DNA of 33,516 nt from Desulfobulbaceae bacterium (lineage in GTDB: Bacteria; Desulfobacterota; Desulfobulbia; Desulfobulbales; Desulfobulbaceae). Both the position numbers and the translations under genes were made by a program. A model generated the notes under the pieces. It had not been told where the DNA came from, ran no database searches, and saw nothing but the letters and a program-made list of their open reading frames with translations. This document shows, in pieces, positions 19,051-33,090 of the stretch (its first letter is position 1; every line of letters starts with the position of its first letter). The stretch lies in NCBI GenBank assembly GCA_019163135.1, contig JAFLKR010000095.1, positions 1 through 33,516 of the forward strand, read 5' to 3'.

Positions 19051-19087
19051 AAAAAAAGGGCAGTACCCGTCATGGATACCACCCTTT
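19051..19087 (-). terminator. Intrinsic terminator of yedE
   Basis: On the minus strand AAAGGGTGGTATCC pairs with GGGTACTGCCCTTT (14 bp including G:U pairs) around a 5-nt loop and runs into a TTTTTTT tract. A wider 9-bp inverted repeat TTAGGGTTC (19027-19035) / GAACCCTAA (19094-19102) encloses it. Confidence 0.75.
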
Positions 19088-19107: not shown

Positions 19108-20376
19108 TTACATTGGTAGTATCAGTTTATTGCTGTCCTCGTTCCATGAAACCACGAGGTACCAGATCAGGGCAAAACCAACAATCAAGGCCATGGTATA
19201 GCCATAGCCTAAAGCATCGGGCAGGTACAGATAGCTACCGAGATATCCTTTTTCTTCAAACCGATAGGCAGAAAACCAAGCCAGCATCAATGAATTTGAA
19301 AGGGAGAAAAACGGTACAGCCACCCACAGTTTAATCTGACCCTCCCCCACACGCCACAGGGCGCCAGATCCGCAACCTCCAGCCAGCATTGCGCCGAGGC
19401 CAAAAATAAATCCACCGACCACACCGCCCCAACCGAAGGTGCCGCGTACATAATTCATCGGATCAAGCACCGGATCGCCACCCAGGCGGGTTGCAACACT
19501 ATATTTGAGGATGGCCGCGCCGACCGCGACAATAACAATAGAAAGCGCAACGGATTTCGCCATTTTGCAATCGCCGGTCATGTGCGGTTCACGGAATCCC
19601 TGAATCATACACCAGCGTCCCCGCTGCATGGTATACCCAAGACCAACGGCGATCAGCAGGATACCGGAAAGCGAGGTAATGTATTCAACATAATCCTCCC
19701 CTTTAAAATTAGCGTAGTAATTTGCACACCAGACAACACCAACCAGCCCGGCAATCCCAAAAACCAACTGGATCAGAAAAGGGATCTCGATGGTAAAGGA
19801 TCCGCCGTCGCCCCAACTGATATGTTCCATCTCTTTATATAAGAGCCAGAGACCGAGAAGCACACCGGGAACCAACCCTACCCACATAGCAAAACCGTTG
19901 GCCGCCAGATTGCCGATAGCATTGTACATACCGCCGACGTTGCAACCACCAGCCAAGGCCGCACCGATACCCATCAAAATACCGGCAATAATGGCTTTGA
20001 CGTACTCACGCACCGGGGGAAAACGGAAAGCAAACTGTCCACCTAGGCAGGCGGAAATAAAAGCGCCACCAATAAATCCAAGACCGATGACCGAGCCAGT
20101 GTTGAATAACATCGATTTAGTCAGGATCTTATCGCCATCTTCATTGACAAACCCTATCAATTCCGCGAGGTCACCGTTAAAAACACCTGCCTTAAACAGC
20201 ATCCAGTCACCCCAATTGCGAATGGCTCCCACTGCACCCCAAGGCCGCCACCAAGCCATGATAAGGATACTCAACAGGGCTACAACAATACCGGTTATGG
20301 TCGGATTCCACTCATCCTGGCAAAGCACTTTATACAAGTGTTTAATTTTTTGCCAAAAAATCTTAACATCTTCCAT
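19108..20376 (-). CDS. yedE: YeeE/YedE-family sulfur-compound permease (YTD cluster)
   Basis: 422 residues, about ten hydrophobic segments in two homologous halves (sulf_transp/DUF395). Each half carries the pore signature: LAGGCNVGG (C145) and LAGGCGSGA (C335), plus C110 in SACLGG and C256 in GRWCMIQGF. In the characterised thiosulfate transporter TsuA/YeeE such cysteines pass the sulfur compound along the pore. Thiosulfate or polysulfide uptake is likely; which one is inference. GAAGGAGG lies about 10 nt upstream of the ATG. The gene is divergent from tusA-dsrE-hp1-hp2, and together they make up the YTD set reported in sulfur-disproportionating bacteria. Confidence 0.93.
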   Translation of the reverse strand: MEDVKIFWQKIKHLYKVLCQDEWNPTITGIVVALLSILIMAWWRPWGAVGAIRNWGDWMLFKAGVFNGDLAELIGFVNEDGDKILTKSMLFNTGSVIGLGFIGGAFISACLGGQFAFRFPPVREYVKAIIAGILMGIGAALAGGCNVGGMYNAIGNLAANGFAMWVGLVPGVLLGLWLLYKEMEHISWGDGGSFTIEIPFLIQLVFGIAGLVGVVWCANYYANFKGEDYVEYITSLSGILLIAVGLGYTMQRGRWCMIQGFREPHMTGDCKMAKSVALSIVIVAVGAAILKYSVATRLGGDPVLDPMNYVRGTFGWGGVVGGFIFGLGAMLAGGCGSGALWRVGEGQIKLWVAVPFFSLSNSLMLAWFSAYRFEEKGYLGSYLYLPDALGYGYTMALIVGFALIWYLVVSWNEDSNKLILPM

Positions 20377-20466
20377 TCTTCAACAGCCTCCTTCCCCTTT
20401 AAAATAAAAATTAACTTCCTATTCAAAAACTTCTTGCAAAATAGATGGAAATTACTGAAAAATGCA

Positions 20467-20495
20467 AAAATACCGTTGCTCACCGAATTTGTCAA
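20467..20495 (-). promoter_or_regulatory. Predicted yedE promoter
   Basis: On the minus strand TTGACA (plus 20490-20495) and TATTTT (plus 20467-20472) are separated by exactly 17 bp, about 90 bp upstream of the yedE start. Confidence 0.6.
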
Positions 20496-20601
20496 TAAAA
20501 GCAGTCACCTTACAGGAGACAGCATTCAAACGCTCACTTTTGCAAGCGATTTTAGCGGATTAATTCGGTCAACCGGTCTTGTTGCTATTTCTGTTTCTAC
20601 C

Positions 20602-20630
20602 TTGACAACCACACCATTTATTTATAAACT
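20602..20630 (+). promoter_or_regulatory. Predicted tusA-operon promoter
   Basis: TTGACA (20602-20607) followed after 17 bp by TAAACT (20625-20630), within TATAAACT. It lies about 65 bp upstream of the tusA ATG, and about 110 bp from the opposite-facing yedE promoter. Confidence 0.6.
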
Positions 20631-20696
20631 AAATCGTCTTTTTTTCATGTATAAAATGGTCTTTTTAAAAAAGTATTTTCTTAAGGAGAACACACT

Positions 20697-20954
20697 ATGA
20701 GTGACGTAAAAGTAGCACCTGAAGGTCTGGCTGTAGCTGCAGTTCTCGATGCACGTGGTTTGAGCTGCCCCATGCCGCTCCTCCGCACCAAAAAAGAAAT
20801 CGGCAAGATCAGCGCAGGGCAGATTCTGCACATTCAAGGAACCGATCCGGGTTCAAGAAACGATATCCCGGGCTGGTGTGAGCGTGCCGGTCATGAGTAT
20901 CTCGGCGAGAAGGAAGAAGCAGGGTACATTAGCTTTTTTATTAAAAAAGGATGA
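20697..20954 (+). CDS. tusA: TusA-family sulfur carrier protein (YTD cluster)
   Basis: 85 residues. The signature LDARGLSCPMPLL holds the persulfide-carrying C24 in the CPMP motif; the rest (GQILHIQGTDPGSRNDIPGW) fits the two-layer TusA fold. Known members accept sulfane sulfur and pass it to DsrE-type or other partners in the cytoplasm. A second Cys lies in IPGWCERAGH. AAGGAG precedes the ATG at good spacing. It is the first gene of the plus-strand arm of the YTD cluster and is followed 42 bp later by a DsrE-like gene, its probable partner. A role in tRNA thiolation (tus pathway) is less likely because TusBCD and TusE are absent here. Confidence 0.95.
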   Translation: MSDVKVAPEGLAVAAVLDARGLSCPMPLLRTKKEIGKISAGQILHIQGTDPGSRNDIPGWCERAGHEYLGEKEEAGYISFFIKKG

Positions 20955-20996
20955 TCTTTCCGTAAAACCTATCCTTTTGAAGGAGGAAAAAAGCCA

Positions 20997-21329
20997 ATGG
21001 CTGCTGATCCAAATAAATTTGGTATTTTCGTTACCAGCCCTCAGCACATGCGTCATATCCTCGGATTGACCAGAGCTGCGGTACATGCCGGAAAAAAGGT
21101 AATGATCTTTTTTACCTTTAAGTCCGTCCATTTAACCAAAAATCCTGATTTCTACACATTGACCCAACTCTGCGACCTTGAAGATGTAGCCATCTGTGCT
21201 GACAGCTATATTTGTGAAGGGTTCGACAACGTCAACGATGTACCCCGCGGTTTAACCGACAAACAAATGCGGACCCAAGCTTTTCACGGCGCCATTCTCG
21301 ACGAATGTGCGAAGTATATCGTCATGTAA
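20997..21329 (+). CDS. DsrE-family sulfur-transfer protein (YTD cluster)
   Basis: 110 residues. KFGIFVTSPQHMRHILGLTRAA, GKKVMIFFTFKSVHLT, EDVAICADSYICEGF and MRTQAFHGAILDECAKYIVM fit the DsrE-like alpha/beta fold. Two cysteines lie in the ICADSYICEG segment, where other DsrE proteins have the sulfur-carrying Cys, and one lies near the end. It should take or give sulfur to TusA; the direction is unknown. GAAGGAGG lies about 10 nt upstream. It belongs with tusA and two small genes downstream in one transcript, ended by the terminator at 21924. Confidence 0.85.
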   Translation: MAADPNKFGIFVTSPQHMRHILGLTRAAVHAGKKVMIFFTFKSVHLTKNPDFYTLTQLCDLEDVAICADSYICEGFDNVNDVPRGLTDKQMRTQAFHGAILDECAKYIVM

Positions 21330-21341
21330 GGAGAGACGGAT

Positions 21342-21689
21342 ATGGAATCATTAAAAGTTTATATACTGATAGCCAACCGTGTATACAATGATGGTATACG
21401 TTCTGGTTTAGGTCTTGCTGTTGAAAATCACTATTCGTTTCCCGTCATCATGAACGGTGAGTTCCCGCGCATGTCCAACTACATGGCCGAGAACATCGCC
21501 TGGATTGCCGATATGGAAGGTGAAGTGTTGAGTTGCGGCGCCGATGCGCCCACCGATTTGCCAGAAGGGACTGAAATTACCAATATCTCCTTGGAAGAAT
21601 TGGGCGAGCGAATGAGGGAAGCTGATTTCATCATTCCTTACGGTCTTCCGAAACAATCCCACGAGCCTCCAGGTGCTTGTAGCGAATAA
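21342..21689 (+). CDS. Uncharacterised YTD-cluster protein (hp1 position)
   Basis: 115 residues, no recognised enzyme motif. It begins LKVYILIANRVYNDGIRSGLGLA, then SFPVIMNGEFPRMSNYMAENIAWI, a single Cys in GEVLSCGADAP, and ends IIPYGLPKQSHEPPGACSE. The alternation of short strands and helices suggests a DsrE-like or related alpha/beta fold, but I cannot assign a family. It is 12 bp after the DsrE-like gene with GGAGA upstream. Its constant company with yedE, tusA and dsrE in sulfur-disproportionating bacteria is known from the literature on the YTD cluster; its role is not. Confidence 0.8.
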   Translation: MESLKVYILIANRVYNDGIRSGLGLAVENHYSFPVIMNGEFPRMSNYMAENIAWIADMEGEVLSCGADAPTDLPEGTEITNISLEELGERMREADFIIPYGLPKQSHEPPGACSE

Positions 21690-21701
21690 AAGGAGAAACC
21701 T

Positions 21702-21890
21702 ATGAGTGGTGATACGATGAAAATATTGCAGGTGTACAAATCTGAGCCCACCGATGATGTTAAAAAACTGGTTGAAATTCTGAACCGTGACCGTGATGCG
21801 GATGAATTTAAACTGTACATCGGTGAGCCGAATTACGATATTCTGATCCAGAAAATTTTTGCCAACGATAAAACCGTTTGCTGGTGGTAA
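21702..21890 (+). CDS. Small uncharacterised YTD-cluster protein (hp2 position)
   Basis: 62 residues. Two starts are possible: the first ATG (MSGDTMKIL, with AAGGAG 9 nt upstream) or the ATG five codons later. The core reads MKILQVYKSEPTDDVKKLV, then LYIGEPNYDILIQKIF and a conserved-looking end DKTVCWW. The lone Cys before two Trp residues is a candidate sulfur-binding or partner-docking tail, reminiscent of the C-terminal Cys of TusE/DsrC and of short DsrH-like proteins, but it is too short for either family. It is the last gene of the operon. Confidence 0.75.
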   Translation: MSGDTMKILQVYKSEPTDDVKKLVEILNRDRDADEFKLYIGEPNYDILIQKIFANDKTVCWW

Positions 21891-21923: not shown

Positions 21924-21958
21924 AACCCTGTCATCTCCGGATGGCGGGGTTTTTTTTT
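21924..21958 (+). terminator. Intrinsic terminator of the tusA operon
   Basis: AACCCTGTCAT pairs with ATGGCGGGGTT (11 bp with two G:U pairs), loop CTCCGG, followed by nine T. A classical rho-independent terminator. Confidence 0.9.
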
Positions 21959-23369: not shown

Positions 23370-24500
23370 ATGGCTTTCCAATTCAATATTGGTAGAGACG
23401 AATTACTCCGAGCTATCAGTATTCAGCAAAATATTACCAGCAAAAGAGGAACCCTGGCTATTTTATCCAATGTGCTTCTCGAGGTTCAGCCTGACCATGT
23501 GATCTTTACCGGGACCGACCTCGAAATTGGCCTGAAACAGACCGTTCCTGCAGAAGTGCTTCAAACAGGGGTTCTGACCCTGCCGGCTAAAAAACTCTTT
23601 GAAGTAGCCCGGGAATCAGGTTCTTCCATTATATCATTTAAAGAACTCGATAATAATTGGGTGGAAATTACCGCAGGACCAAGTTTGTATCGGTTAGCAG
23701 GTATGGTCGGAGATGAATTCCCTCAATTTCCTACCTATGATGAAACTGCACTTATCCAAATAGATAGCGCGGTCATGGCTGACCTAGTTGATAAAACTAT
23801 ATTCTCCATCGCTCAAGACAAAGAAAATATGTTCACCTTGACCGCCGTTTTATTACAGAAAATTAAAGAAAATGATCATCTCTATCTAAAAATGATATCT
23901 TCTGATGGACACCGCTTAACCATCATGAGCAGAGAAATCGATTCTACCCTTGATGGCCTGCACATGAATCCGGTGACTTTAATTCCCAGAAGGGGGGTGC
24001 AGGAAATTAGAAAATTTTGTGAAAACAAAATTTCCTTTGCCTTTGGGATAGAAGAAAAACAGGCCGTCTTAAAAAGCGAAGATTCTTTACTTATTGTCCG
24101 ATTAATGGAAGGTGATTTTCCAGATTTTCAAGGATTACTTAATAGTTTATCAAAAGATAATGTAATTTCTATTGATAGGAATCGTTTTCTAGAAAGTTTA
24201 AAGCGAATAAACCTTTTCACTGAAGACATATTTCATGCCATAAAAATAGAAATTAATGATAAAAAAATGATTTTAACCTCTCAAAATGCTGATTTTGGGT
24301 CTGCAAAAGATGAGTTTGATGTCGATTATGAAGGAAAATCTTTGTCATTAGGATTTAATTGTAGATATTTTATTGAAAGCCTTCAGGTTATGGAATCAAA
24401 TATTATAAATGCCAATATTAATTCTCAAGAAAGTCCATGCATGATTACTTCTAATGAAGACATAGGATTTTTAAGTATTATCATGCCTATGAAATTATAA
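23370..24500 (+). CDS. dnaN: DNA polymerase III beta subunit (sliding clamp)
   Basis: 376 residues, three clamp repeats of about 120 residues, ending in the family's typical IIMPMKL. Seen: an N-terminal domain with LAILSNVLLEV and FTGTDLEIGL, KMISSDGHRLTIMS in the middle, and GFNCRYFIESLQVM in the last domain. It forms the ring that holds polymerase III on DNA. The codon use is strongly AT-biased compared with gyrA. A weak ribosome site (AAAAGGAT) lies near the ATG. In many bacteria dnaN follows dnaA and precedes recF; here neither is adjacent, and gyrB starts 61 bp later. Confidence 0.96.
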   Translation: MAFQFNIGRDELLRAISIQQNITSKRGTLAILSNVLLEVQPDHVIFTGTDLEIGLKQTVPAEVLQTGVLTLPAKKLFEVARESGSSIISFKELDNNWVEITAGPSLYRLAGMVGDEFPQFPTYDETALIQIDSAVMADLVDKTIFSIAQDKENMFTLTAVLLQKIKENDHLYLKMISSDGHRLTIMSREIDSTLDGLHMNPVTLIPRRGVQEIRKFCENKISFAFGIEEKQAVLKSEDSLLIVRLMEGDFPDFQGLLNSLSKDNVISIDRNRFLESLKRINLFTEDIFHAIKIEINDKKMILTSQNADFGSAKDEFDVDYEGKSLSLGFNCRYFIESLQVMESNIINANINSQESPCMITSNEDIGFLSIIMPMKL

Positions 24501-24561
24501 TATTAATTTCCATTTTTTTTTAAAAAGATAGTTTTAAAATCTACAAAAACAAAGGAAAACA

Positions 24562-26973
24562 GTGACTGATATAAATAACACGTCCTATGAAGCTGAGCAT
24601 ATAAAAGTACTTGACGGACTAGAAGCGGTTCGAAAAAGACCGTCCATGTATATTGGCAACACCGGCGAAGAAGGTCTGCATCATTTAATTTACGAGGTGG
24701 TTGATAATTCCATCGATGAAGCCTTAGCCGGCCATTGCGATCAAATCAGCATCACCATCCACGAAGACAATTCCGTCACTGTCGAGGACAACGGCAGAGG
24801 AATCCCAGTCGAGATGCATCCCACCGAACATATGTCGGCCTTGGAACTGGTTATGACCACCTTGCACGCCGGTGGAAAATTTGATCACTCGACCTATAAG
24901 GTTTCTGGCGGTCTTCATGGTGTCGGTGTGTCGGTGGTCAATGCCTTGAGTAATAATACGGTTGCCGAGGTCAAACGGAACGGAAAAATATACAGGCAGA
25001 CTTTTGCTTACGGTATTCGCACCAGCGAACTTGAAGAAATAGGAATAAGCGAGCAGACCGGCACCAGCATTTTCTTCGCCCCGGACCCAGAAATTTTTTC
25101 GGAAACAACGGTTTTTCAATATGAGATCGTTAAAACCAGAATGCGGGAATTGGCTTTTCTCAATAAAAATATCCGGATTATCCTGAAAGATGAGCGTGAT
25201 GGTGCAGAAGACACCTTTTATTATGACGGCGGTATTACCTCGTATGTCGAATATTTAAACCGAAACCGCACCTGCGTCCATCCGGACCCCATTTTGATTT
25301 CTGGTGAAAAGGATTCGGTCCAGGTCGATATCTGTTTTCAATATTTTGATGGATATTCCGAGCGGCTCTTTTCTTTTGTTAACAATATAAATACAAAAGA
25401 AGGTGGTAGTCATGTAGCCGGCTTTCGAGCGGCCCTGACCAAATGCATAAACCGCTATGCCAGTGATGATGTGGTTCCCAAACATCTCAAGGAAAAAATG
25501 GGGGGCGATGATGTCCGCGAAGGATTAACCTGTGTCATTTCCGTTCGTGTACCTAATCCACAATTTGAAGGGCAGACCAAAACCAAATTGGGTAATTCCG
25601 AGGTCAAATCAATAGTTGAGTCGCTATGCAATGAAAAATTGGGAGCCTATCTGGAGCAAAATCCCGCGGTAGCCCGCAATATTTTAAGTAAAGCAGTGGA
25701 AGCGGCTCGGGCTCGGGATGCTGCTCGAAAGGCTCGTGAACTCTCCAGAAAAAAAGGGAATCTCTCCGTTTTGATGGCGGGTAAACTTGCAGAGTGCCAA
25801 AGCAAAAATCCGGCAGACCGGGAAATTTTCATAGTTGAGGGTGATTCGGCGGGCGGCTCCGCCAAACAGGGACGGGATAGGGCCGTACAGGCGATTTTAC
25901 CCCTGCGCGGTAAGATTATGAACGTTGAAAAAGCTCGTTTTGATAAAATTCTCAGCTCTGAGGAAATTAAACAATTGGTGGCCTCGCTGGGAACCGGGAT
26001 AGGCAGTGAAGAATTTGACCTGGCCAAACTCCGCTATCATAAAGTCATTATAATGACCGATGCCGATGTTGATGGAGCCCATATCCGTACTTTGCTCTTA
26101 ACCTTTTTTTATCGCCAGATGCTGCCACTAATTGAAAACGGACATGTTTATATTGGGCAACCACCGCTATATCGTCTGGGAAAAGGTAAAAAAGAGCAAT
26201 ATTTCCTCAACGATGAAGCCCTCAATACCTATCTGTATTCCCAGGCCAGTCAGTTGATGCGTATTCATACGGATAAGGATGTAATGATTGCCGAAAACGT
26301 CATGGTGGATGTCCTGCGGAAGCTTTCTGCCTTTGAAAGGATAGTGGCCTATCTGGAACGGATTAATATCCAAGAACCCTTGGCTCTGTTTATGCTGAAA
26401 AACAATGTGCACACAGCGTTGCAATTTGAAAATCGAGCCTTCGTTGATGCCTTGGCAGAAGAGTTACAAACAATGGGCACTTTGGTGGGAGCCGTCAGGA
26501 CTTGCAGTTGGCGACCCGCCTGTTTCGAATTCGACGTCACCTTCAGTGGTCAGATGCACATGGCTGTGACCCTTGGGCCCAACGTCCCGCTCATTAATGA
26601 ATATCGCCATGCCCTTGAGCTTTACAAGACGATTCAACCTTATCTCACCTGCTCCTTTACATTAGTGCGGACCGGGGCGAGCGGGCAAGAGAGTGAATCA
26701 ACAGCCGAAACCTGGCATCGACTGATTGAGTTGGTGCGCGAAGAGACCTTCAAAGGCAGCCATCTGCAGCGGTATAAAGGTTTGGGCGAGATGAACCCTG
26801 AACAACTTTGGGACACCACCATGAATCCGGAAAACCGGATGTTGCTCCAGGTAAAAATCGATGATATCCAACTCACCGACGATATTTTTACGACGCTTAT
26901 GGGAGATAAGGTCGAACCACGGAGAGAATTTATTCAAAATCACGCCCTTGAGGTGGCAGATCTGGATATTTAA
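24562..26973 (+). CDS. gyrB: DNA gyrase subunit B
   Basis: 803 residues with a GTG start (AAAGGA upstream). The N-terminal GHKL ATPase has YEVVDNSIDEALAG, VEDNGRGIPVEM and GGLHGVGVSVVNALS. The TOPRIM domain has IVEGDSAGGSAKQGRDR and IIMTDADVDGAHIRTLLL with the Mg-binding acidic residues. The protein is long because of an insertion of roughly 170 residues between the TOPRIM motifs and the QRYKGLGEMNPEQLW tail, as in the Gram-negative (E. coli-type) subunits. It works with GyrA to introduce negative supercoils. It lies between dnaN and gyrA, 68 bp from gyrA. Confidence 0.98.
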   Translation: MTDINNTSYEAEHIKVLDGLEAVRKRPSMYIGNTGEEGLHHLIYEVVDNSIDEALAGHCDQISITIHEDNSVTVEDNGRGIPVEMHPTEHMSALELVMTTLHAGGKFDHSTYKVSGGLHGVGVSVVNALSNNTVAEVKRNGKIYRQTFAYGIRTSELEEIGISEQTGTSIFFAPDPEIFSETTVFQYEIVKTRMRELAFLNKNIRIILKDERDGAEDTFYYDGGITSYVEYLNRNRTCVHPDPILISGEKDSVQVDICFQYFDGYSERLFSFVNNINTKEGGSHVAGFRAALTKCINRYASDDVVPKHLKEKMGGDDVREGLTCVISVRVPNPQFEGQTKTKLGNSEVKSIVESLCNEKLGAYLEQNPAVARNILSKAVEAARARDAARKARELSRKKGNLSVLMAGKLAECQSKNPADREIFIVEGDSAGGSAKQGRDRAVQAILPLRGKIMNVEKARFDKILSSEEIKQLVASLGTGIGSEEFDLAKLRYHKVIIMTDADVDGAHIRTLLLTFFYRQMLPLIENGHVYIGQPPLYRLGKGKKEQYFLNDEALNTYLYSQASQLMRIHTDKDVMIAENVMVDVLRKLSAFERIVAYLERINIQEPLALFMLKNNVHTALQFENRAFVDALAEELQTMGTLVGAVRTCSWRPACFEFDVTFSGQMHMAVTLGPNVPLINEYRHALELYKTIQPYLTCSFTLVRTGASGQESESTAETWHRLIELVREETFKGSHLQRYKGLGEMNPEQLWDTTMNPENRMLLQVKIDDIQLTDDIFTTLMGDKVEPRREFIQNHALEVADLDI

Positions 26974-27041
26974 CCACAGTTCGATTCAGATCACGAAAAC
27001 TAAATTATCTCCCTTAAGCCAGACTCAAGCAGGAATTTACA

Positions 27042-29552
27042 ATGACGGAATTAACCGCAGGTACCACCCCACAACCAACCATAGCCATTGAAAAGGAATT
27101 ACGTAAATCCTATATGGATTACGCCATGTCGGTCATTATCGGCAGGGCGCTTCCGGATGTCCGAGATGGCCTCAAACCGGTGCATCGCCGCACCCTTTTT
27201 GCCATGCGCGAACTGGGCAACACTTACAACCGGCCCTATATCAAATCAGCCCGTATTGTCGGTGATGTTATCGGTAAGTATCATCCCCATGGTGACACCG
27301 CCGCCTACGACACTCTGGTGCGAATGGCGCAGCATTTTTCCATGCGCTATCCCCTGGTCGACGGTCAGGGCAACTTTGGTTCCATGGATGGCGATTCGGC
27401 CGCTGCCATGCGGTATACCGAAGCTCGGATGACCCGGCTTGATCAGGAATTGGTTGCAGATCTTGAAAAAGAAACGGTGGACTTTGTCCCCAACTACGAC
27501 AATTCCCTGCAGGAGCCCTCGGTTCTTCCCTCCAAAATTCCCAATATTCTGATCAACGGATCAGAGGGGATAGCGGTCGGCATGGCCACCAAAATTCCGC
27601 CACACAATCTGACCGAAGTTATCGATGGATTGTTGGCCCTGATGGAGGATCCCGAGATCACAGTGCATCAGTTGATGGAGATCATCACCGGCCCGGATTT
27701 TCCCACCGGTGGTTTTATCTGCGGCCGTGCCGGGATTCGTGAGGCCTACGAAACCGGTCGCGGGATTATTATCATGCGCTCCAAAACCCATATTGAACCG
27801 CGTGGGGCCCATGGCGAATCCATCATCATCACCGAGGTTCCGTTTCAGCAGAATAAGGCCTCGCTGGTCGAAAAAATTGCGATGTTGATGAAGGAAAAAC
27901 GTATCACTTCGATCGCCGAAATCCGGGATGAATCCGATCGGCACGGGGTCAGGGTGGTGCTCGATCTGCGCAAAGATGAATTTCCCGATGTGGTCATTAA
28001 TCAACTCTACAAAATGACGCCGTTGCAGAAAAGTTTCGGTATTATTTTACTCTGCATTGTCAATAACAAACCGGAAATACTCAACCTTAAACAAATTTTG
28101 CAGTATTTTCTGGTCCATCGAAAAACGGTAATTTACCGACGAACCGCCTTTGAATTACGCAAGGCCGAAGAACGAGCCCATATCCTGGAAGGATTGAAAA
28201 TTGCCATAACCCACCTGGATGAAGTGGTGGCGCTTATCAGGGCGTCGGTCAACCCTGCGGAGGCCAAAGAGGGGTTGACCCAACGGTTCGAATTATCCGA
28301 GATTCAGGCGCAGACTATCCTGGATATGCGCCTACAGCGCTTAACCGGCCTGGAGCGCGAAAAAATTATCAGCGACTATCAAGAGATTATTGAAAAAATC
28401 AATTGGTTGAAGCAGGTACTTAGCGATGATAGCCTGGTGCTGCAGATCATCCGTGATGAGTTTGAAAAAATAAAGGAAGATTATGGTGATGGGCGCCGAA
28501 CCGAGATTATCGACGCGCCGGACGAAATCCTGCCCGAGGATATGATAACCCCGGAGGAAATGGTGGTAACGGTTTCGCATACCGGTTACATCAAACGAAA
28601 TCCCATGAATCTGTACCGGGCGCAGCGGCGCGGCGGCAAGGGCGTCAAGGGCATGGTCACTTTGGAGGATGATTTCGTCACTAGCCTCTATACTGCCTCC
28701 TCGCTGGACACCTTCCTCTTTTTTACCAATAAGGGTCGTGTGTTCTGGCGCAAGGTCTATGAATTGCCGCTTGCTGGCCGAACTGCCCGAGGCAAAGCCA
28801 TCGTCAATCTGCTGGAACTCGGTGAGAACGAAAAAGTTGCGGCGATTCTGCCGATTGCTGACCTGGCTAATATGGACGATAGTGTTTCGGTGCTCACGGT
28901 CACTAAACTTGGACGGGTCAAAAAGACCTTTATCTCCGAATATAAACGACCCATGCGCAAGGGGAAATTCGGGTTGACCATCCGGGATGACGATGAGATA
29001 TTGACCGCTGCGATAACCTCAGGTGATAATGAGATTTTCCTGGTCACCAAAAAAGGCCTGTCTATCCATTTTAGCGAGACCGATGTCCGCGCTATGGGAC
29101 GCCTTGCCGCAGGCGTCAAAGGGATAAACCTGGGCGAAGATGATGTGGTAGTCGGGGTTGCAGTCATCAAGAGTGATGATTCTATCCTGACCGTCACGGA
29201 AAACGGTTATGGCAAGCGTACAGCGGTGTCTGAATACAAACTCCAAACCCGGGGTGGCAAAGGCGTGTTCACCATCAAAACCAGCGAGCGCAACGGCAAT
29301 GTCGTTGGGGTGCTGCCGGTGGTCGATGAAGACCAGGTCATGCTTATTGCCAATTCCGGTAAGGTTATTCGCATGCCGATGGACACGGTTCGCATCATCG
29401 GACGTAATACCCAAGGTGTCCGCCTGATCAATCTGGAGGAAGGTGAACTGGTAGTTGACATGTCCATGCTCGCCCGGGAAGAGGTCCTCGACGACGGGGA
29501 TGATACCATTGAGGGAGATGATGAACTCGTCGAAGGAAATGATGAAGATTGA
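27042..29552 (+). CDS. gyrA: DNA gyrase subunit A
   Basis: 836 residues. The breakage-reunion domain has [20 protein letters not shown] and the catalytic tyrosine Y125 in [10 protein letters not shown]. The quinolone region reads [10 protein letters not shown], with T86 and D90 at the places of E. coli S83 and D87; Thr there is common in wild-type enzymes. The C-terminal beta-pinwheel includes the GyrA box as [10 protein letters not shown], which marks gyrase rather than ParC. The tail (about 812-836) is strongly acidic, rich in Asp, Glu and Gly, like the tails that tune supercoiling in other gyrases. Its end overlaps gpsA by 11 bp. Confidence 0.98.
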
Positions 29553-32115: not shown

Positions 32116-33090
32116 TCAGACAACTTCGCGGCCGCGGCCGGAATCGTTTAACCCAGCCAGGACGCGGGGATAAGGGCGGAGAAAAATCTGGTTGTGGAGG
32201 TAGCGCTGGCCGAAACGGATGGCATAGGCCTCAAGCAGGCGGGTGACTGCCTGTAGCGGCAACCGCTCGTCCCGGTACTCCTCTATCGAGTTAACCACAT
32301 ACTGTTTTTCCTCGGGCCCAAGGTGCTCGGAAATCCAGCCGAAGGCGTGGTAAAGTGTGTTGATCACCCCGGGAATACGCAGTGGCGCATACAGAATCCG
32401 GGTGAGTTCTTCGCGGTAAAGCCGGAACACCTTGGCAACCGGTAATTTGGGATGATTGGCGACAATCTTGCCGGCCAGACGGAAACGGCTTTGGTTATAA
32501 GCGAGGAAGAGCAGTTTGTGGGTGGCGTGGAAGTCTACCAGTCGACCCATTTCCGGCTGAGTGCAGATCTCACGGAAACGAGCCAGGGTGAACAGTTTGA
32601 TCAGAAAATGTTCGCGTAGGGCCAGGTTGCTCAGTCGCATCTCGTCTTCTATGGCTTGGCCGTCAAAGACCCGCAGCACCTGTTCGCCGAAGACCCCGCC
32701 TGCTTTTTTGAGAAATTGCGGTTTATCGATGCCCTGGTAGATTTTGGTGTCGTATAGCCCGCAACTCGGCGATTTACTTTTGAGGATCACCCCATCAACC
32801 TGCGGATGGTCGACCAGAACAGAGGCAATTGTTCCCCCTATTTGTTCCGTCACATCCCGGCCAGTGGCGGGTTGATAAACTATAACCCCGTCCCCTGCCA
32901 TGCAAAGCCGAATCGGGGCGCGGGGAATCCCCAGGCCGCAATCGGTTTCCGGGCAGACCGTGATAGTCTCCACCAATGGTTGCAACTGCTCAATAAAACC
33001 ATTTTTTAAGATCTGGCCGTCGTAGCGACAGGCCGCAAAACCGAGGCAACGGCTTATAAGTACCTTCGGCACCGGAAATTTTTCGTTCAT
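32116..33090 (-). CDS. DUF523-DUF1722 protein (TudS-like desulfidase plus YbgA-like domain)
   Basis: 324 residues. The N-terminal DUF523 domain (about 8-150) has C15 and C21 in SRCLGFAACRYDG, CPETDCGLGIPR, and SKSPSCGLYDT. In the TudS thiouracil desulfidase such cysteines hold a [4Fe-4S] cluster that binds the sulfur of the substrate. The C-terminal DUF1722/YbgA domain (about 190-310) starts at LVDFHATHKLLFLAYNQ. Fusions of the two are common in databases, but their substrate is not known to me. AAAAGGGGAAG lies upstream of the ATG. It follows hgcB by 18 bp on the same strand and is probably cotranscribed with hgcAB. Confidence 0.88.
   Translation of the reverse strand: MNEKFPVPKVLISRCLGFAACRYDGQILKNGFIEQLQPLVETITVCPETDCGLGIPRAPIRLCMAGDGVIVYQPATGRDVTEQIGGTIASVLVDHPQVDGVILKSKSPSCGLYDTKIYQGIDKPQFLKKAGGVFGEQVLRVFDGQAIEDEMRLSNLALREHFLIKLFTLARFREICTQPEMGRLVDFHATHKLLFLAYNQSRFRLAGKIVANHPKLPVAKVFRLYREELTRILYAPLRIPGVINTLYHAFGWISEHLGPEEKQYVVNSIEEYRDERLPLQAVTRLLEAYAIRFGQRYLHNQIFLRPYPRVLAGLNDSGRGREVV

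Follow-up and report, generated by a model that had tools for sequence, protein, structure and literature searches.

A yedE and tusA-dsrE-hp1-hp2 cluster of a Desulfobulbaceae bacterium as a probable sulfane-sulfur import and DsrEFH type II relay system

The assembly GCA_019163135.1, from a Desulfobulbaceae bacterium, is 3.64 Mb in length and 98.95% complete. We analysed positions 1 to 33,516 of its contig JAFLKR010000095.1; this whole stretch of 33,516 nucleotides is referred to as the window. An earlier note on the same DNA had described a complete YTD cluster (yedE, tusA, dsrE, hp1, hp2) and had read it as a marker of sulfur disproportionation. All five open reading frames were found at the claimed place, and they are both homologous to, and syntenic with, the genes of known YTD clusters. 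The genes and accompanying signals are as follows.

19055-19087, minus strand: terminator-like hairpin 3' of yedE (stem of 14 pairs, loop of 5, T tail)
19108-20376, minus strand: yedE, 422 aa, YeeE/YedE-family sulfur (sulfane sulfur/thiosulfate) permease, PF04143 Sulf_transp
20467-20495, minus strand: promoter-like site of yedE, TTGACA-17-TATTTT, with the −35 block TTTGTCAA (20488-20495 on the plus strand)
20602-20630, plus strand: promoter-like site of the tusA operon, TTGACA-17-TAAACT, with TTGACAA at 20602-20608
20697-20954, plus strand: tusA, 85 aa, sulfurtransferase with a CPxP motif (SCPMP), Pfam TusA PF01206
20997-21329, plus strand: dsrE type II ('dsrE-like'), 110 aa, predicted active-site Cys67
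21342-21689, plus strand: hp1, corresponding to dsrF type II (chp), 115 aa, C-terminal Cys113
21702-21890, plus strand: hp2, corresponding to dsrH type II (chp), 62 aa, C-terminal end CWW
21924-21951, plus strand: operon terminator hairpin just 3' of hp2 (stem of 12 pairs, loop of 4, T run)

The four plus-strand genes are separated by intergenic gaps of 42, 12 and 12 nt and, by eye, each has an AGGAG sequence 6-11 nt 5' of its ATG. The earlier note had yedE facing an operon that ends in a terminator, and this arrangement was borne out by the hairpin and T run at 21924-21951. Because a scan of 5 kb returned nine hairpins, compared with 6.0 (standard deviation 2.2) in shuffled sequence, the case for a terminator is made by where the hairpin lies and how long its stem is, and not by the number of hairpins. 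The yedE gene is a transcription unit of its own; it is divergent from the operon, lies across a 320-bp gap and has its own conserved promoter-like site. The two promoter-like sites in this gap are divergent and of the σ70 type. When the window was aligned with eight relatives, the yedE −35 block TTTGTCAA and the TTGACAA of the tusA operon were each unchanged in 9/9 sequences, and TATAA was found in the −10 region of the latter in 5/9. The stretch between the −35 blocks varies, and no conserved operator-like block was seen there in the nine-sequence alignment. Inverted repeats in the gap are short and imperfect.

The products of yedE and tusA matched their Pfam families well above cut-off (Sulf_transp, 155 bits against 27; TusA, 83.6 bits against 28.6). 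Three NCBIfam models were touched by the YedE protein, each with a score far under cut-off, so the protein is neither TsuA nor YedE/FdhT proper. Its cysteines are conserved in the distinct aligned rows that cover them: Cys145 in 96/96, Cys256 in 75/75 and Cys335 in 66/67, the exception being a stop. The dsrE-like, hp1 and hp2 products gave no match to Pfam or NCBIfam at E ≤ 1.

We took the definition of a YTD cluster from PMC12998232 and PMC9751629: a yedE-related permease gene, tusA, and a dsrE-like gene with two conserved hypothetical genes, in synteny. All of these are present at the window locus. Among named genomes, hp1 is matched best in Desulfobulbus metagenome-assembled genomes (MAGs; 94% and 93% identity) and Desulfobulbus isolates (91%), which places the organism in Desulfobulbus. 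Homology of hp1 and hp2 to the YTD hypothetical proteins, set as a check by the earlier note, was found with the proteins of Desulfocapsa MAGs and Ca. Electronema aureum GS. A scan of genome contigs produced 51 named loci, none of them named Desulfurivibrio or Dissulfurispira. The order tusA-dsrE-hp1-hp2 was retained in 51/51; yedE was divergent in 44, co-directional in four and not found upstream in three, two of which reach a contig end. In an even draw across the phylum, dsrE, hp1 and hp2 were adjacent in all 30 of the strongest-match loci, our own genome included; 30 weaker matches stand outside this count.

The earlier note had left hp1 and hp2 as unknown proteins, a description now overtaken by two papers of 2026 (PMC13293266 and PMC13047784) that model the dsrE-like, hp1 and hp2 products as a DsrEFH-like complex. 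In PMC13293266 the three are identified as DsrEFH type II, with hp1 being DsrF type II; in PMC13047784 the DsrEFH-like model was reached independently. The molecular kind of system, a DsrEFH type II relay, is already in print. With E. aureum proteins in vitro, PMC13293266 reports sulfur transfer from TusA to DsrE that depends on DsrE Cys67, and one-way transfer from DsrEFH type II to DsrC. Residue Cys67 was present in 85/85 distinct DsrE homologues and occupies the same position in the window protein.

Genes for Dsr partners of such a relay are present in the window genome. Matches to dsrA (579 bits, cut-off 392.85), dsrB (507.6 bits, cut-off 341.5) and dsrC (103.9 bits, cut-off 53.5) were all above threshold, and DsrC keeps its two C-terminal cysteines (...GACKMAGLPKPTGCV). 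Separately, a 224-aa open frame at G000:C39:10737-11363 has a pair of adjacent DsrC/TusE-type matches, both weak and below the family cut-off; the product is possibly a tandem DsrC-like protein. The draw across the phylum comprised 296 genomes, each at least 90% complete, and its counts are raw, with shared ancestry left in and reductive and oxidative dsrA pooled. DsrE type II was detected in 58 genomes and dsrA above cut-off in 146. Both occurred in 57 genomes, dsrA without DsrE type II in 89 and neither in 149. The single genome with DsrE type II and no dsrA above cut-off (G319) has weak dsrA matches only. This shows that DsrE type II is nested inside Dsr organisms.

We consider it probable, at roughly 0.68, that the cluster serves sulfane-sulfur import and a relay from TusA through DsrE to DsrC, into a Dsr pathway running oxidatively. 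The basis seen in the window genome is the genes, the operon layout, the conserved promoter-like sites, the homology, Cys67, and dsrA, dsrB and dsrC. YedE would import sulfane sulfur, presumably as polysulfide or a similar ion. In the cytoplasm, the CPxP cysteine of TusA would take up the sulfur as a persulfide and pass it on to DsrE, at Cys67; this DsrE would be part of a heterotrimer with DsrF and DsrH, made of the dsrE-like, hp1 and hp2 products. The heterotrimer would then load DsrC, and DsrC would deliver the sulfur to Dsr enzymes that oxidize it to sulfite, with DsrAB presumably acting in the oxidative direction. For the window proteins, we infer the TusA-DsrE-DsrC transfer from homology to the E. 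aureum proteins. An ordinary Desulfobulbus sulfate reducer would in this way gain a facultative oxidative use of sulfur. Such use may cover the oxidative half of disproportionation and would not be specific to it.

The relay could conceivably also work in reverse: while the cell reduces sulfate, the relay would draw on cytoplasmic metabolism for sulfane sulfur to be stored, exported or detoxified. Transfer between TusA and DsrEFH was indeed bidirectional in vitro, but DsrC donated no sulfur to DsrEFH type II in the in vitro assays reported (PMC13293266). We regard a reverse role as very improbable.

The cluster might instead have no part in energy metabolism and belong to housekeeping sulfur trafficking that, like TusBCD, supplies sulfur for tRNA thiolation or for cofactors. 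Its surroundings fit this idea. The conserved flanks are a 5-formyl-tetrahydrofolate cyclo-ligase gene on one side and serine hydrolase and dnaN genes on the other, with dnaN downstream of the cluster in 27/38 named loci that have more than 3.5 kb of flank. The neighbourhood looks like a long-resident chromosomal one. In the window, dnaN, gyrB and gyrA follow one another at 23370-29552, adjoining the cluster, and there is no dnaA among the window open reading frames scanned with Pfam. Another sulfur-related domain in the window is found at 32116-33090, where a protein combines 2-thiouracil desulfurase with DUF1722.

A second point in favour of housekeeping is G018, a single-contig Desulfobulbus chromosome of 2,774,417 bp that is 99% complete. 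It has tusA, dsrE (with Cys67), hp1 and hp2 in order (L145:9165-10271). Genome-wide, YedE had no match at a threshold of E ≤ 0.001 and MolyA had none at E ≤ 1e-150; a divergent transporter could escape such detection. A milder case is L024, where the flank beside the operon has no yedE and the same genome has yedE elsewhere. The relay is separable from yedE and can outlast its neighbour. However, G018 still has dsrAB, and across the phylum draw dsrA accompanies DsrE type II in 57/58 genomes compared with 89/238 of the others; a housekeeping system should not track dsrAB. Hence, we think a purely housekeeping role improbable.

Several observations weigh against import and relay into an oxidative Dsr pathway. 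In PMC13293266 a Cys67Ser variant still gave sulfur to DsrC, a transfer that its authors call nonspecific, and PMC13047784 holds that the complex and DsrEFH are not orthologues and takes the cluster as supporting disproportionation. The 57/58 association is, as stated, a raw count that includes shared ancestry and pools reductive with oxidative dsrA. Retention of tusA-dsrEFH in G018 without a detectable yedE means that the system does not always include YedE-mediated import. The AlphaFold model of hp1 is poor, with a predicted local distance difference test (pLDDT) score of 54.4. With the hp2 model, Foldseek returned nothing at E ≤ 0.001 and the best Z in VIA-align was 5.5; neither DsrH nor TusB was among the 50 matches listed by each. 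Probabilities in a profile comparison against E. coli TusD, TusC and TusB were 2.4, 0.9 and 0.15%, none of them significant.

The hp2 model itself is a compact beta-alpha-beta-alpha-beta fold (pLDDT 88.6), and the VIA-align matches listed for it are mostly fragments of unrelated larger enzymes and receptors. These searches with a predicted model speak neither for nor against identity with DsrH. In a sequence-profile search of the PDB, none of DsrE, hp1 and hp2 had a match with an E value of 10 or less. Since our own structural tests did not confirm DsrF and DsrH folds, the DsrEFH identity leans on homology to the published proteins.

The cysteines of the complex suggest a further idea. The tail residue Cys113 of hp1 is present in 75/86 distinct homologues, and the remaining 11 have a gap at that position. 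DsrE Cys73 and the DsrF tail Cys113 go together: of 87 distinct complexes, 76 have the pair and 11 have neither residue. In these 11 the DsrF protein is short and lacks any cysteine in the tail; elsewhere, the tail is mostly PPACx. This co-occurrence may reflect one old event. It is a doubtful proposal, in our judgement, that tusA-dsrEFH type II is a core function of the Desulfobulbales, retainable without importer and MOLY, with most complexes having a second sulfur site formed by Cys73 and Cys113. If true, such a site could explain the loading of DsrC by the published DsrE Cys67Ser variant.

We now turn to disproportionation. The cluster may be equipment for this way of life as well as a marker of it: YedE would import sulfur derived from elemental sulfur (S0), the relay would feed dismutation, and the organism would grow accordingly. 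Homologous clusters are found in Desulfocapsa MAGs. PMC12998232 reports the cluster in all surveyed S0 disproportionators of the Desulfobacterota and Nitrospirota and makes it, with MOLY, the best candidate. PMC13047784 favours such a role. The main evidence for it comes from PMC9751629, where all five proteins were more abundant in thiosulfate disproportionation. Furthermore, the window genome has a MOLY-type locus on another contig (C58), as follows.

L117:9469-10071: MOLY-type TorD/DmsD-like chaperone (molyC-type)
L117:10072-12282: MOLY-type PhsA-like catalytic molybdoenzyme subunit, with a twin-arginine-type N-terminus by eye
L117:12341-13141: MOLY-type Fe-S subunit, followed by a hairpin and T run (by eye)

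Thus, molyA, molyB and a TorD/DmsD-type molyC stand together at L117:9469-13141, without an anchor; no membrane anchor gene lies in the last 249 bases of the contig after the hairpin. We scored a MolyA orthologue where a match had at least 59% identity and added one 93% fragment in G019, which gave 31/55 genomes of the genus, family and order; four matches of 39-41% were scored absent. Of 13 named genomes with YTD loci that were searched, six have an orthologue (69-85% identity).

The distribution of the cluster argues the other way. Across the same 55 genomes, hp1 was found in 46, and in 39/40 of a good-quality subset (at least 90% complete and at most 5% contaminated). Because of this near-universal presence, the cluster follows taxonomy. 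A MolyA orthologue is present in 21 of the 39 good-quality genomes with hp1 and absent from 18. One genome of the order, G054, has two hp1 homologues, on C31 and C53, that are 76% and 45% identical to the window hp1; the match of the second is limited to residues 3-102.

A sharper case comes from within the genus. Genome G009, one contig of 3,102,012 bp, matches D. oligotrophicus Prop6 in length (PMC7862947), a strain for which Table 1 of PMC12998232 lists S0 disproportionation as no, sulfite as yes and thiosulfate as no. Its YTD proteins are close to those of the window: YedE is 83% identical (over residues 1-407, to the end of the stretch), TusA 86, DsrE 88, hp1 90 and hp2 85%. The three MOLY-type genes are there too (59, 77 and 84% identity). 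Since a genome matching a strain listed as S0- and thiosulfate-negative has both sets, prediction of disproportionation from YTD is unsafe. This counterexample is a strong hint and not proof, because negative growth tests can err, for example without a sulfide scavenger. Table 1 of PMC12998232 also lists D. propionicus, of the same genus, as an S0 disproportionator. The table gives S0 as yes for D. elongatus too, a species that shares the cluster (L008), and cites Ward et al. 2021 (PMC8170396). We give that entry little weight because the main text of the cited paper mentions the species in connection with an oxidase and in a reference but nowhere else, and describes no such test.

In print, PMC12998232 counts YTD among the best candidates and holds that it cannot serve alone as a marker. 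PMC13293266 calls the disproportionation hypothesis 'poorly supported'; it finds type II genes in 25/63 cultured disproportionators and in many sulfate reducers incapable of disproportionation. We consider a dedicated disproportionation device and marker unlikely. It is possible that the window organism uses the cluster in disproportionation; as to whether it grows in this way, the evidence points neither way. The earlier interpretation therefore stood in part: the complete cluster and the homology of hp1 and hp2 held, whereas the reading as a marker of disproportionation did not.

These considerations extend beyond one genome. YTD has been proposed as a genome-based predictor of disproportionation, and one genus shows here that such use is unsafe. 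If the DsrEFH type II reading is true, many ordinary sulfate reducers, the window organism included, may oxidize sulfur. The interpretation of dsrAB abundance in sediments would then change, an argument already published (PMC13293266).

Finally, we compared the window system with three known ones. The likeness to canonical DsrEFH/TusBCD (type I) lies in three small adjacent genes and, according to PMC13293266, in role and active-cysteine logic. There is no recognisable sequence similarity between the type I proteins and the window dsrE-like, hp1 and hp2 products. Consistently, type I DsrE (TIGR03012) was above cut-off in 0/55 genomes, and one control genome passes; the best score in the window genome was 24 bits against a cut-off of 89.25, on a contig other than that of the cluster.

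The Desulfocapsa MAGs (L035, L048 and L050) have the same five genes in the same order. Identities to the window proteins are 57-66% for YedE, 79-85% for TusA, 67-68% for DsrE, 68-75% for hp1 and 60-69% for hp2, and the Desulfocapsa hp1 has an insertion of 3-4 residues after residue 75. Desulfocapsa isolates are listed in Table 1 of PMC12998232 as disproportionating S0, sulfite and thiosulfate.

In Ca. Electronema aureum GS (L034), the surroundings differ from those in the window. The downstream serine hydrolase gene is co-directional with the operon, whereas in the window it is convergent; cyclo-ligase and deacetylase genes follow, and the 9.3-kb locus yielded no dnaN. A close MolyA orthologue, which the window genome has, was missing from the three cable-bacterial genomes that were searched (best matches 39-42%). 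The cluster itself agrees with that of the window in its five genes, in their order and in the divergence of yedE. Identities to the window proteins are 63% for YedE, 80% for TusA, 69% for DsrE, 76% for hp1 and 75% for hp2, and the E. aureum GS DsrE has Cys67 at the same position as the window protein.

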